DNA of 64,000 bases, taken from assembly GCF_014656375.1 (NCBI RefSeq), contig NZ_BNCH01000002.1, forward strand, positions 248,001 to 312,000. Reading direction: 5' to 3'. Shown one piece after another: positions 20,986-37,441 of the stretch. Source of the DNA: Aliiroseovarius zhejiangensis (GTDB taxonomy: Bacteria > Pseudomonadota > Alphaproteobacteria > Rhodobacterales > Rhodobacteraceae). Both the position numbers and the translations under genes were made by a program. Under the pieces are notes generated by a model that saw only the letters and a program-made list of their open reading frames with translations, was not told where the DNA came from and searched no databases. Every line of letters starts with the position of its first letter. Positions within the stretch are counted from its first letter, which is position 1.

Positions 20986-22590
20986 ATGAAATTGAATTCC
21001 CAAGCCACGCCTGGTTCCGAGGCGTATAAAGCCAACCGTGAGGGCCATCTTGAGGCGTTGAAAATCGTGCAGGAGGCTGCCGAAGCCGCGATGATGGGCG
21101 GCGGGCAGAAATCGCGCGAACGTCACCTGTCGCGCGGCAAGATGCTGCCGCGCGACCGGGTGTCGAACTTGCTGGACCCCGGCTCGCCTTTCCTGGAAAT
21201 CGGCGCAACAGCGGCGCATGGCATGTATGATGGTGCGGCCCCGGCGGCGGGCGTGATTGCCGGTATCGGTCAGGTGCACGGGCAAGAGGTGATGGTTGTG
21301 TGTAATGACGCCACCGTCAAAGGCGGCACCTATTACCCGATGACCGTCAAGAAGCACCTGCGCGCGCAGGAGATTGCGGAAGAATGCAATCTGCCCTGCA
21401 TCTATCTGGTGGACAGCGGCGGCGCGAACCTGCCCAATCAGGACGAGGTGTTCCCGGATCGTGACCACTTTGGCCGCATCTTCTACAATCAGGCGCGGAT
21501 GAGCGCCAAGGGCATCCCGCAGATCGCGGTCGTGATGGGATCCTGCACAGCAGGCGGCGCCTACGTGCCCGCCATGTCGGACGTGACCATCATCGTGAAA
21601 GAACAAGGCACCATCTTCCTTGCCGGTCCCCCCTTGGTGAAGGCCGCAACCGGCGAAGTTGTATCAGCCGAAGACCTTGGCGGCGGGGACGTGCACACGC
21701 GTCTGTCCGGTGTGGCCGATTACCTGGCCGAGGATGACGCCCACGCACTGGCGCTGGCCCGTCGCGCGGTGGAAAGCCTGAACCGTAAGAAACCAATGAC
21801 AGTGAAGTGGCAGGAACCGGAAGACCCCGCCTATGACCCTGAAGAATTGCTGAGTGTGGTGCCTGCCGACCTGAAAACGCCTTATGACATCCGCGAAGTG
21901 ATCATGCGCATCGTGGACGGCTCGCGCTTTGATGAGTTCAAGCCCCGCTTTGGCGAAACGCTGGTCACGGGTTTTGCGCATCTGAAAGGTTGCCCCATCG
22001 GGATCATCGCCAACAACGGCGTGATTTTCTCGGAAGCCGCCCAGAAAGGCGCGCATTTCGTCGAACTGTGCAGCCAGCGCAACATCCCCTTGGTGTTCCT
22101 GCAAAACATCACCGGCTTCATGGTGGGCCGGAAGTACGAGAACGAAGGCATCGCCCGTCATGGTGCCAAGATGGTGACGGCTGTGGCCACCACCAACGTG
22201 CCGAAGGTGACGATGGTTGTTGGTGGCTCTTACGGCGCCGGGAACTACGGCATGGCCGGGCGCGCCTATCAACCGCGCTTCATGTGGTCCTGGCCCAATT
22301 CGCGGATCTCCGTGATGGGTGGCGAACAGGCCGCCGGTGTGCTGGCGACCGTGAAACGTGACGCCATCGAACGGCAAGGTGGGGAATGGTCAGCCGAGGA
22401 GGAAGCCGCTTTCAAGCAACCCACCATTGATATGTTTGAGGAACAGAGCCACCCGCTCTACGCCTCGGCGCGTTTGTGGGATGATGGCGTGATCGACCCG
22501 CGCAAATCGCGCGAGGTGCTCTATCTATCGCTGCTGGCTGCCCTGAACGCCCCGATCGAGCCGACGAAGTTCGGCGTGTTCCGGATGTAG
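20986..22590 (+). CDS. mccB: Methylcrotonyl-CoA carboxylase beta subunit (carboxyltransferase)
   Basis: Carboxyltransferase subunit (liuB in liu nomenclature) that moves carboxyl from biotin to 3-methylcrotonyl-CoA. At 534 residues it matches the family. [34 protein letters not shown] in the first crotonase-like half is strongly typical of MccB and separates it from propionyl-CoA carboxylase beta. A second crotonase-like half carries the glycine-rich [12 protein letters not shown] and [18 protein letters not shown] 20986 has an upstream GAAGGA; the next frame start upstream lies inside the previous gene. The operon context and the mccA partner downstream confirm the call. Confidence 0.96.
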
Positions 22591-33498: not shown

Positions 33499-34794
33499 AT
33501 GCTGCAGGATAAAGACCGGATCTTTACCAACCTTTATGGCATGCACGACCGCACCCTTGCGGGCGCCAAACAGCGTGGCCATTGGGATGGCACCGCCGGG
33601 ATCATCAAGAATGGGCGCGAGTGGATCATCGAGCAGATGAAAGCCTCGGGCCTGCGGGGTCGTGGTGGTGCGGGCTTCCCGACCGGTCTGAAATGGTCCT
33701 TCATGCCCAAGGAAAGCGACGGCCGTCCGGCCTATCTGGTGATCAACGCGGACGAATCCGAACCCGGCACCTGTAAAGACCGTGAGATCATGCGCCACGA
33801 TCCGCACACGCTGATCGAGGGCGCGCTGATCGCGTCTTTCGCGATGAATGCGAACACCTGCTATATCTATCTGCGCGGCGAATATATCCGCGAGCGCGAG
33901 GCGCTTCAGGCGGCGATTGACGAATGCTATGATGCGGGGCTGCTGGGCAAGAACGCCGCGAAATCCGGCTGGGATTTCGACCTGTTCCTGCATCACGGGG
34001 CAGGCGCATATATCTGTGGCGAGGAAACCGCGCTTCTGGAGAGCCTTGAGGGCAAGAAAGGCATGCCACGCATGAAGCCGCCCTTCCCGGCGGGGGCGGG
34101 TCTGTATGGCTGCCCGACCACCGTGAACAACGTGGAAAGCATCGCCGTCGTGCCGACCATTCTGCGCCGCGGGCCGGAATGGTTTGCAGGCTTTGGCCGC
34201 CCCAACAACTCCGGCACCAAGCTGTTTGGCATCTCGGGCCATGTGAACAACCCCTGCGTTGTCGAAGAGGCAATGTCGATTTCCTTTGAGGAACTGATCG
34301 ACAAGCATTGCGGCGGCATTCGCGGTGGCTGGGACAACCTGAAAGCCGTGATCCCCGGCGGCTCGTCGGTGCCGTGCGTGCGCGGTGAAAACATGCGCGA
34401 CGCGATCATGGATTTCGACTATCTGCGCGGCGAGCTTGGCTCGGGTCTTGGCACCGCGGCGGTGATCGTGATGGACAAGCAGACCGACATCATCAAGGCG
34501 ATCTGGCGTCTGGCGAAATTCTATAAGCACGAAAGCTGTGGTCAGTGCACGCCGTGCCGGGAAGGCACCGGCTGGATGATGCGCGTGATGGATCGCCTGA
34601 TGCGCGGCGAAGCCGAGGTCGAGGAAATCGACATGCTGTGGGACGTGACCAAACAGGTCGAAGGTCACACGATCTGCGCCCTTGGCGACGCGGCCGCCTG
34701 GCCGATCCAGGGTCTGATCCGCAACTTCCGCGACGAAATCGAGGATCGCATCCGTGTGAACAAACAGGGTAAGGCCAGCATCGCGGCAGAATGA
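33499..34794 (+). CDS. nuoF: NADH-quinone oxidoreductase subunit F
   Basis: 51 kDa-type subunit of complex I that binds NADH and FMN and holds cluster N3, 431 residues. The glycine-rich [16 protein letters not shown] binds [19 protein letters not shown] and [13 protein letters not shown] line the FMN site, and the cluster ligands are in [15 protein letters not shown] plus the later [21 protein letters not shown] precedes the ATG. It follows the two small membrane-protein genes and precedes the leader ORF and DUF5333-like gene. Confidence 0.97.
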
Positions 34795-34825
34795 TGCCGA
34801 CCCGTGGCGAGCAAAGGAAATGATG

Positions 34826-34945
34826 ATGAACATGCAGATCAACATACTGAAAACAGGCGGTTTTCCGTCCGTTTTCGCGCGTTGTTATTGCATGACAACA
34901 CCCGCGCTCCCCATCTCCTTTTCAAGAAAAGGAGATATGGAATGA
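34826..34945 (+). CDS. Candidate 39-residue leader peptide upstream of the secreted DUF5333-like gene
   Basis: Short frame in the 147-base gap after nuoF. It is preceded by AAAGGA, 7 bases before ATG 34826 (in-frame ATGs at 34820 and 34823 also exist). It runs through both arms of the hairpin at 34913-34936, and its stop overlaps the next start as ATGA (34942-34945). Its sequence (beginning MNMQINILKTGG) has no recognisable domain. A leader whose translation melts the hairpin would explain the layout. No conservation evidence is available here. Confidence 0.45.
   Translation: MNMQINILKTGGFPSVFARCYCMTTPALPISFSRKGDME
34913..34936 (+). promoter_or_regulatory. Perfect hairpin sequestering the ribosome binding site of the DUF5333-like gene
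   Basis: ATCTCCTTTTC (34913-34923) and GAAAAGGAGAT (34926-34936) are exact inverse complements separated by two A, giving a stem of 10-11 pairs. The right arm contains AAGGAG (34929-34934), the Shine-Dalgarno of the ATG at 34942, so initiation should be blocked unless the stem is opened. No T tract follows, which argues against a simple intrinsic terminator. Confidence 0.7.
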
Positions 34946-35361
34946 TGAAACTTCGCCCCTTTGTGCTTGCCTCGGTCCTTGCCGCAACTGCGACGGCCGG
35001 ATCAGCTTCGGCCACCGATTACTCGGTGTTACGCAAAGACGACCGGATGCACGCCGAATTGTTGAGTGCGTCGATCGCCTATCTGATCGACGAGAACTGT
35101 CCGACCCTGCGGTTGCGCAAGTTGCGCCTGCTGAACAAGGCGTTTTCGCTGCGCAAACACGCTGTGTCACTGGGATTCACGACGAAAGAAGTCATGGCCT
35201 ATGTGGACAGCAAGGCTGAACAGGACCGCTTTCGCGCCATCGCCGAGCCCATGCTGGCCAAGCGTGGCGCAACGGCAGGCGACGAAGAAAGCTATTGCGC
35301 CATCGGGCGCGAAGAAATGGAAAAAGGCACCTTCGCAGGGTCATTGCTGACCAAACGCTAG
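34942..35361 (+). CDS. Secreted small protein in the nuo operon (DUF5333-like)
   Basis: Exported protein of 139 residues with a signal peptide whose core is FVLASVLAATATAG and predicted cleavage after SASA. The mature part is helical, has two Cys (NCPTLRLRKLRLLNK and SYCAIGREEM) that could pair, and resembles the DUF5333 family seen in Rhodobacterales (from memory). ATG 34942 is selected by the AAGGAG 8 bases upstream. That site lies in a perfect hairpin, so translation may depend on the upstream leader ORF. A periplasmic protein between nuoF and nuoG is unexpected; the function is unknown. Confidence 0.75.
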   Translation: MMKLRPFVLASVLAATATAGSASATDYSVLRKDDRMHAELLSASIAYLIDENCPTLRLRKLRLLNKAFSLRKHAVSLGFTTKEVMAYVDSKAEQDRFRAIAEPMLAKRGATAGDEESYCAIGREEMEKGTFAGSLLTKR

Positions 35362-35419
35362 GGGCTGACAGGTGCGGAGACGGGGAAAACCCCGCTTCGC
35401 GAATTGAAAAGGGACCGTG

Positions 35420-37441
35420 ATGAGCGACTTGAAAAAGATCGTCATTGACGACATGGAAGTTGAAGTTGATGGCGCGATGACGCTGATTCAGGCCTGTGAA
35501 GTGGCCGGGATCGAGGTGCCGCGTTTCTGCTATCACGAACGCCTGTCGATTGCCGGCAACTGCCGCATGTGTCTGGTCGAGGTCGTTGGCGGCCCGCCCA
35601 AGCCCGCGGCGTCCTGTGCGATGCAGGTGCGTGACCTGCGCCCCGGTCCCGAAGGGGAACCGCCGGTCGTGAAAACCAACTCGCCGATGGTCAAGAAGGC
35701 CCGCGAAGGCGTGATGGAGTTCATGCTGATCAACCACCCGCTGGATTGCCCGATTTGCGATCAGGGCGGCGAGTGTGACTTGCAGGATCAGGCAATGGCC
35801 TATGGCATGTCCGGGTCGCGGTTCAGGGAACAGAAACGCGCGGTGGATGATCTGGATCTGGGGCCGCTTGTGGGCACCGCGATGACGCGCTGCATCAGCT
35901 GCACCCGTTGCGTGCGCTTCACCACCGAGATCGCCGGGATCACCCAGATGGGCCAGACCGGTCGCGGTGAGGATGCCGAGATCACCAGCTATCTGAACCA
36001 GACGCTGGATTCGAACCTTCAGGGCAACATCATTGACCTCTGCCCGGTCGGCGCGCTGACCTCGAAACCCTATGCGTTCACCGCCCGCCCGTGGGAGCTG
36101 ACCAAGACCGAAACCATCGACGTGATGGACGCGCTTGGGTCGAACATCCGCGTGGACACCAAGGGTCGCGAAGTGATGCGCATCCTGCCGCGCAACCATG
36201 ATGGCGTGAACGAGGAATGGATTTCCGACAAGACGCGCTTCATCTGGGATGGTCTGCGCCGCCAGCGGCTGGACGTGCCTTATGTGCGTGAGGGCGGCAA
36301 GCTGCGCAAAGCCACGTGGGGCGAGGCGCTGGCCAAGGCTGCCGAGGCCATGAAGGGTGCCAAGAAGGTTGCCGGTCTGGTCGGCGATCTGGCCTCGACC
36401 GAAGCCGCGTTCAGCCTGAAAATGCTGATCGAAGGGCTGGGTGGCAATGTTGAATGCCGCACGGACAATGCGCGCCTGCCAATCGGCAACCGCTCGGGCT
36501 ATGTCGGCACGGCGCGGGTCGAGGACATCGACAACGCCAAGTTCATCCAATTGATCGGCACCAACCCGCGCGTTGAAGCGCCGGTTCTGAATGCCCGCAT
36601 CCGCAAGGCGTGGCTGAAGGGGGCGCAGGTCGGTCTGGTCGGCGAACCGGTCGATCTGACCTATGACTACGCGCATGTCGGCAATGACCGTGCGGCGCTG
36701 GAAAGCATCGTAGGCAAGGAATACAGCGCGGTGAAGGATGCGCCGTCGGTCGTGATCGTCGGCATGGGCGCTTTGCGTGAAGCCGATGGTCTGGCGGTTC
36801 TGTCCAACGCGATGAAGCTGGCCGAGGATACCGGCTCCAAGCTGATGATCCTGCACACGGCTGCTGGCCGCGTGGGTGCGATGGACGTGGGTGCTGTGAC
36901 CGAAGGTGGCATGGAGGCCGCGACGACGGGCGCCGATGTGATCTTCAACATGGGTGCGGACGAGATCGACATAGATGCCGGTCCCTTCGTGATCTATCAG
37001 GGCAGCCATGGCGACCGGGGCGCAATGCGCGCCGACGTGATCCTGCCGGGCGCGGCCTATACCGAAGAGGGCGGGCTGTTCGTCAACACCGAAGGGCGCC
37101 CGCAACTGGCGCTGCGTGCGAACTTCGCACCGGGTGAGGCCAAGGAAAACTGGGCGATCCTGCGGGCATTGTCGGCGGAACTGGGCGCGACGCTGCCATG
37201 GGACAGCCAGGCGGGCCTCCGCCGCGCCATGGTCGAGGCCGTACCGGTTCTGGCCGGGGTCGATCAGGTGGCTGAGAATGAATGGCAACCGCTGCCGGTC
37301 GAGAAAATGGGAGCGGCCAGCTTCCGTTACGTGATTGGCGATTTCTATCTGACCAACCCGATTGCACGGGCGTCGGAAGTGATGGCAGAGCTGTCCGCTC
37401 AGGCGCGCGCACGCGCGTCGTCGAAGCTGGCGGCGGAATAG
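35420..37441 (+). CDS. nuoG: NADH-quinone oxidoreductase subunit G
   Basis: 75 kDa-type subunit of complex I that carries electrons from the flavin toward NuoB, 673 residues. The N-terminal 2Fe-2S cluster ligands are in [21 protein letters not shown] and AASCAMQV; further cluster ligands are in [30 protein letters not shown] and [12 protein letters not shown]. The rest is the molybdopterin-oxidoreductase-like fold without cofactor. ATG 35420 has AAAAGGGA upstream. The 58-base gap before it contains a CGGGG-AAAA-CCCCG mini-hairpin. Confidence 0.97.

Follow-up and report, generated by a model that had tools for sequence, protein, structure and literature searches.

A putative internal promoter within a hairpin over the ribosome binding site of a DUF5333 gene in the complex I operon of Aliiroseovarius

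The window analysed here, a stretch of 64,000 nucleotides from Aliiroseovarius zhejiangensis, carries a gene of the DUF5333 family (34942 to 35361, + strand; 139 aa; Pfam PF17267, E = 2.5e-29) between two genes of the nuo operon, nuoF upstream (33499 to 34794, + strand) and nuoG downstream (35417 to 37441, + strand, with the GTG start at 35417 given in the ORF list). The N-terminus of its product resembles a signal peptide when inspected by eye. Searches recovered the gene from 20 of 21 Aliiroseovarius genomes and from 141 of 198 Rhodobacteraceae genomes, one match at a contig end (G153) being left out of the upstream set. Five family genomes (G059, G109, G118, G143 and G179) have two matches each, which are adjacent in G059, G109 and G143. 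Upstream DNA was taken from 159 DUF5333 loci, 144 of which were oriented by tblastn with the window protein; the other 15 enter no count. The name DUF5333 appeared in no paper of the open-access literature searched. A palindrome, GGGGAAAACCCC, lies at 35382 to 35393 in the gap between DUF5333 and nuoG.

The preliminary description of this DNA had pointed to an 11-base inverted repeat over the AAGGAG of the DUF5333 gene. We confirmed this repeat, hereafter hairpin H3 (34913 to 34936, + strand), which is made of the perfect arms ATCTCCTTTTC-AA-GAAAAGGAGAT, with a 5' arm at 34913 to 34923 and a 3' arm, the SD arm, at 34926 to 34936 that holds the AAGGAG. In alignment A1, which comprises 19 distinct sequences of the genus (L003 was omitted as the same stretch as L002), 84.7% of the H3 cells are paired. 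The local fold of H3 reaches -14.6 kcal/mol compared with -7.5 for shuffled sequences (z = -2.9), and the surrounding 166-nt region also folds more strongly than its shuffles (z = -3.8). When the window was searched for inverted repeats with perfect arms of 10 bp or more and loops of 2 to 8, 5 matches at 3 sites were returned, whereas order-1 Markov simulations of 64 kb gave a mean of 1.3 matches (0 to 4 over 20 runs), so that an inverted repeat per se is not very rare in 64 kb. H3 alone among these 3 sites carries AGGAG in its 3' arm, and it is distinguished by its placement on the SD, not by the length of the repeat. Another perfect 11-bp inverted repeat, GTCGCGCGGCA..TGCCGCGCGAC, is located at 21129 to 21156.

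The earlier proposal that H3 hides the ribosome binding site is borne out by structure prediction. On the long RNA, the predicted cost of opening the SD averages 8.5 kcal/mol in the genus and is at least 6.0 kcal/mol in 17 of 20 loci; the exceptions, L002, L003 and L014, lack a strong hairpin and have a low opening cost. The ribosome binding site of DUF5333 is therefore predicted to be sequestered on long transcripts in most of the genus. Covariation in the stem, which had been suggested as a check, was observed in one loop-proximal pair that changes on both sides, but only in that one of 10 pairs. The loop-closing pair (columns 97/102 of A1) is UA in 7 sequences, GC in 5, CG in 2 and other or unpaired in 5, and most H3 columns double as SD or -10 columns.

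Two more hairpin-forming sequences, absent from the preliminary description, are found 5' of H3 in the same gap, at 34850 to 34875 and as a palindrome at 34882 to 34898. The first one, H1 (34850 to 34875, + strand; AAAAC.GGCGG-TTTT-CCGTC.GTTTT), has 86.8% of its cells paired and a two-sided change in 4 of 10 pairs in A1. It is a candidate processing signal or weak attenuator; tried as an intrinsic terminator, it did not score as one. Taken together, H1 and H3 gave a joint covariation score of 0.169, compared with 0.099 for shuffles and a maximum of 0.111 when slid, and 5 pairs with two-sided changes versus 3.0 in shuffles, a number reached in 29 of 500 shuffles. The covariation term given by RNAalifold for the whole gap is only -0.2.

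The second one is centered on a 15-bp palindrome, TGTTATTGCATGACA (34883 to 34897, + strand), with the family consensus TGNTAT-TGM-ATANCA, which we read as a putative regulator site overlapping a -35 element. The -35-like hexamer, TTGCAT (TTGMAT in the family), occupies 34888 to 34893 on the + strand and is nearly always found in this orientation. It is followed after 17 bp by a -10-like hexamer, CCATCT, at 34911 to 34916 on the same strand, embedded in CCCATCT and lying partly in the 5' arm of H3. Spacing from this -10 box would place the transcription start at 34924 (+/-2 nt, + strand), in the CAAG of the H3 loop. A scan with the plain sigma-70 consensus found no promoter at this gap; its -10 box is a poor one.

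Scored on the 144 DUF5333 loci from which it was itself drawn, the degenerate consensus occurs without mismatch on the + strand of 98 upstream regions (19 of 20 in the genus and 79 of 124 outside it) and has no full match at 46. A reverse-strand match was seen at 1 of the 144 loci; within one mismatch the number rises to 94, as the motif is palindromic. A narrower pattern, TGHTATTGMATADCA, with matches assigned to DUF5333 by coordinates, gave 76 matches in the 198 family genomes, while its reversed control gave one on the + and one on the - strand. The exact pattern occurs 0 to 2 times per genome in the genus. Furthermore, ATTGMAT is strongly oriented upstream of DUF5333, with 95 forward versus 5 reverse occurrences, compared with 2 in 168,725 bases downstream.

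Conservation at core positions +5 to +7 (T 100%, T 90%, G 100%) is partly due to selection, as loci were picked by their likeness to the window core: those matching it at fewer than 10 of its 15 positions were dropped, together with L085, L104, L105, L119 and L128, removed by eye. The same selection applies to the core-pair covariation, SD opening-cost, flank-swap and local-pairing tests. The tables of core conservation and core-pair covariation kept 3 of the 20 genus loci. At DUF5333 loci, CCCATCT lies at a fixed distance, core +27 to +33, with each base conserved at 51 to 64% except that at +32. When we scanned a collection holding one genome per species for the motif followed by N12 and CCCATCT, 63 stretches were recovered, all but two of Rhodobacterales type judging by title. 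Of these, 54 have DUF5333 downstream, and nuoF was found within 1.5 kb upstream in 43 of those 54.

The motif also precedes other genes. Apart from DUF5333, we compiled 53 motif sites; L182, L222 and L231 were left out of the tests on 50 sites, and the pattern match in G042:C292 is not in the set. By eye, 43 of the 53 precede a gene with a signal-peptide-like N-terminus and 10 have no exported-looking gene. The gene types include CYADYKAK-type small proteins (15 sites), CXXCH-bearing proteins, glycine-zipper proteins (an assignment above the Pfam cut-off for 1 of 2 tested) and short lipoprotein-like proteins; four other motif-site proteins, when tested, matched no Pfam family within E = 0.01. 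The -10 box at the 50 non-DUF5333 sites has the shape C, A or C, A, N, T or G, T, and T is present at core +33 in 80% of them. The window's own genome has a second exact pattern match (L186, C4:315425-315439), which precedes a gene whose 124-aa product looks exported; a product similar to it is encoded after the motif in L167. What sequence comparison shows directly is the hairpin and the motif, together with the motif's orientation, spacing and further target genes.

In 12 of the 15 CYADYKAK-type genes, the ATG lies at core +40 to +43, which coincides with the predicted +1. These mRNAs are likely to be leaderless or nearly so. In L216, L220, L227, L254, L256 and L259, all of CYADYKAK type, the ATG is within about 2 nt of the predicted start.

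This placement bears on a quite unlikely reading, in which the palindrome acts as an RNA hairpin that binds a protein or a ligand and, with CCCAUCU, forms an unlisted RNA element controlling translation. Genes with their ATG at the predicted +1 would leave the motif outside the mRNA. Nonetheless, the palindrome has some properties of an RNA stem: its arms are perfect or extended at length in L093, L092, L094 and L148, its loop keeps one orientation, its flank-swap z is -2.7 and pair -1/15 scores 0.62 against 0.47 in shuffles. Pairing across it also exceeds block-swapped controls (6.3 vs 5.2) at DUF5333 loci of other genera, though not at the other sites. Against this, the core pairs show no clear covariation (2/12, 0.59 vs 0.52; 0/14, 0.72 vs 0.71), and nothing in the window reaches the gathering score of an Rfam family; with the limit relaxed to E = 1 on 14 loci, two matches below that score were all that appeared, one to a snoRNA and one to a fluoride aptamer. 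Since the core pairs hardly covary, the palindrome fits a DNA site better than an RNA stem.

As a DNA site, it bears a resemblance (GTTATNNNATAAC) to the Zur operator. No zinc-uptake gene was recognised by eye among the 53 other motif sites. The half-sites of the palindrome vary, with T, A or C at core +2. The promoter-like part can be compared, tentatively, with the RpoHI and RpoHII promoters of Rhodobacter sphaeroides, described as having TTG in the -35 element and a -10 element with A-12 and T-9 (PMC3441632). DUF5333 loci are similar in their TTG at -35 and in the conserved A and T of the -10 box (CCATCT), and the distance from the first T of TTG to this A is 24 to 25 here and 24 in those promoters; the excerpts of that paper compared here mention no palindrome at -35. 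At non-DUF5333 sites, the -10 shape is more general than that of RpoH. CenR was considered as the owner of the motif, as its regulon is described, in the part of the source available, as rich in envelope and exported proteins (PMC9275681), which are also among the targets here. However, the CenR site given there is a direct repeat, TGA-N8-TGA, whereas TGNTAT-TGM-ATANCA is an inverted repeat, and this candidate was rejected.

The preliminary description had also proposed that DUF5333 is made only when ribosomes translate a leader ORF running through the stem. The frame is there (34820 to 34945, + strand; putatively translated): it has 41 codons if read from its first ATG, or 39 if the third is taken, with AAAGGA in front, and its stop and the DUF5333 ATG at 34942 overlap as ATGA. 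According to this reading, ribosomes on the leader would melt the hairpin, or terminate at ATGA and reinitiate, so that the long nuo mRNA would yield DUF5333 only if its leader is translated; such coupling, which we consider unlikely, may coexist with an internal promoter. The proposed check on the conservation of the leader gave a divided answer. All 20 genus loci keep the frame open, and it stops at the DUF5333 start or overlaps it, with 16 ATGA overlaps, 3 one-base overlaps and one end at +8, and the leader has fewer stops than column shuffles (0 vs about 3; 3.3 with P = 0.014 for the longest stretch, P = 0.014 to 0.03 overall). The AAAGGA ahead of the window's leader ATG also agrees with translation. 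However, no codon-phase signal was detected, as variability upstream of the palindrome is 0.30/0.31/0.35 by codon phase, and the SD in front of the leader varies across genus loci. Furthermore, the palindrome falls in frames 0, 1 and 2 relative to the DUF5333 gene in other genera, where the frame is not kept, and in L021 the leader frame continues into the DUF5333 gene. Given the lack of codon phase, the variable leader SD and the loss of the frame outside the genus, leader-driven unfolding of the hairpin is possible but weakly supported, and the claim that DUF5333 is made exclusively upon leader translation is not supported in that form. In its layout, the locus is reminiscent of leader-peptide attenuation or coupling, with a short ORF through a hairpin and overlapping stop and start, but it differs in that we saw no conserved regulatory codons and no peptide constraint other than those set by the promoter-like motif and the SD. 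A cysteine-sensing peptide, suggested by the CYC codons, was rejected, as the palindrome TGTTATTGC accounts for these letters and other genera do not keep the frame.

We favor an internal promoter for DUF5333 in the gap, embedded in the hairpin that masks its ribosome binding site, as a reading that is, on balance, probable. This promoter would possibly also serve the nuo genes located after DUF5333. On a long nuo transcript, the 5' arm (34913 to 34923) would pair with the SD arm (34926 to 34936), and DUF5333 would be poorly translated. Because the 5' arm coincides with the -10 box and discriminator of the promoter, it would be missing from a short transcript initiated at about 34924; without this anti-SD arm, the SD would be free. 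DUF5333 output would then be under the control of whatever reads the palindrome and uncoupled from transcription of the operon. Promoter function, start position, regulator binding and the translational effect are what we infer from the sequence comparisons.

Opening-cost predictions are consistent with this scheme in the genus, where moving the transcript start to core +40 lowers the mean cost of opening the SD from 8.5 to 1.8 kcal/mol, with a decrease of more than 4 kcal/mol in 17 of 20 loci. Hairpins spanning +41 exceeded flank-swapped controls at the DUF5333 promoters of the genus (n = 20, z = -3.7, 0/300), of other genera (n = 78, z = -6.0, 0/300) and of the named genomes (n = 49, z = -4.1, 0/300). 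In contrast, no such excess was seen at non-DUF5333 motif promoters (n = 50, z = -0.2; n = 9, z = +0.9). Loci that were too short or had no recognised SD or start were excluded from the opening-cost, flank-swap and local-pairing tests. As the excess is found at DUF5333 loci and not at other motif sites, the hairpin seems to be a feature of the intra-operon copy of the promoter. CCTTT directly after the -10 box is likewise conserved in the genus and not at other motif sites.

These results also bear on a very improbable alternative, in which the promoter signal has nothing to do with the hairpin, itself an RNA thermometer or a passive device for low translation. The stem that holds the SD is indeed short, contains AU and has a predicted energy of about -15 kcal/mol. 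However, the position of H3 follows the promoter motif, and other motif promoters have no hairpin excess. RNA thermometer stems typically contain mismatches, and the H3 stem has none.

Outside the genus, the arrangement of promoter and hairpin is looser, which argues against a uniform design. The SD opening cost dropped by more than 4 kcal/mol in only 15 of 70 loci from other genera, and the local pairing excess peaks near +48 to +51 instead of +41, so that part of the hairpin would stay on the short transcript.

The proposed promoter resembles an arrangement described for phage T4 gene e, soc and I-TevI, whose late transcripts lack the 5' strand of a hairpin masking the ribosome binding site (PMC3014915, PMC2988022; both compared in part). 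As in T4, the ribosome binding site would lie in a hairpin on a long readthrough mRNA, with a promoter just upstream that encodes the 5' strand and a short transcript that is, by prediction here, structure-free. The locus described here differs from T4 by its position in a complex I operon on a bacterial chromosome, by the recurrence of the palindrome at other exported-protein genes, by its transcripts being predicted from sequence and by the leader ORF through the stem, of which the T4 descriptions compared make no mention. A broader reading, which we put forward tentatively and which could well be wrong, is that an undescribed Rhodobacteraceae regulator reads the palindrome across the -35 element of exported-protein promoters, and that the nuo copy gained a selected hairpin around its start, so that output would track the regulator instead of the transcription of complex I, as a family-wide bacterial form of T4-style silencing. 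If this were true, a respiratory operon would carry a gene uncoupled from operon transcription by geometry alone. In the literature compared, itself partial, such logic is described for phage T4; a bacterial precedent may exist. The motif would offer a precise, searchable DNA signature for exported-protein genes, with no more than two exact matches in any genome of the genus, and an entry point to DUF5333.

In Roseovarius and related loci (L276, L284, L297 and L321), the palindrome is followed by CCCATCTGC..GCAGATGGG. There, CCCATCT(GC)..(GC)AGATGGG forms a predicted hairpin over the -10 box and start region, with the SD located outside it.
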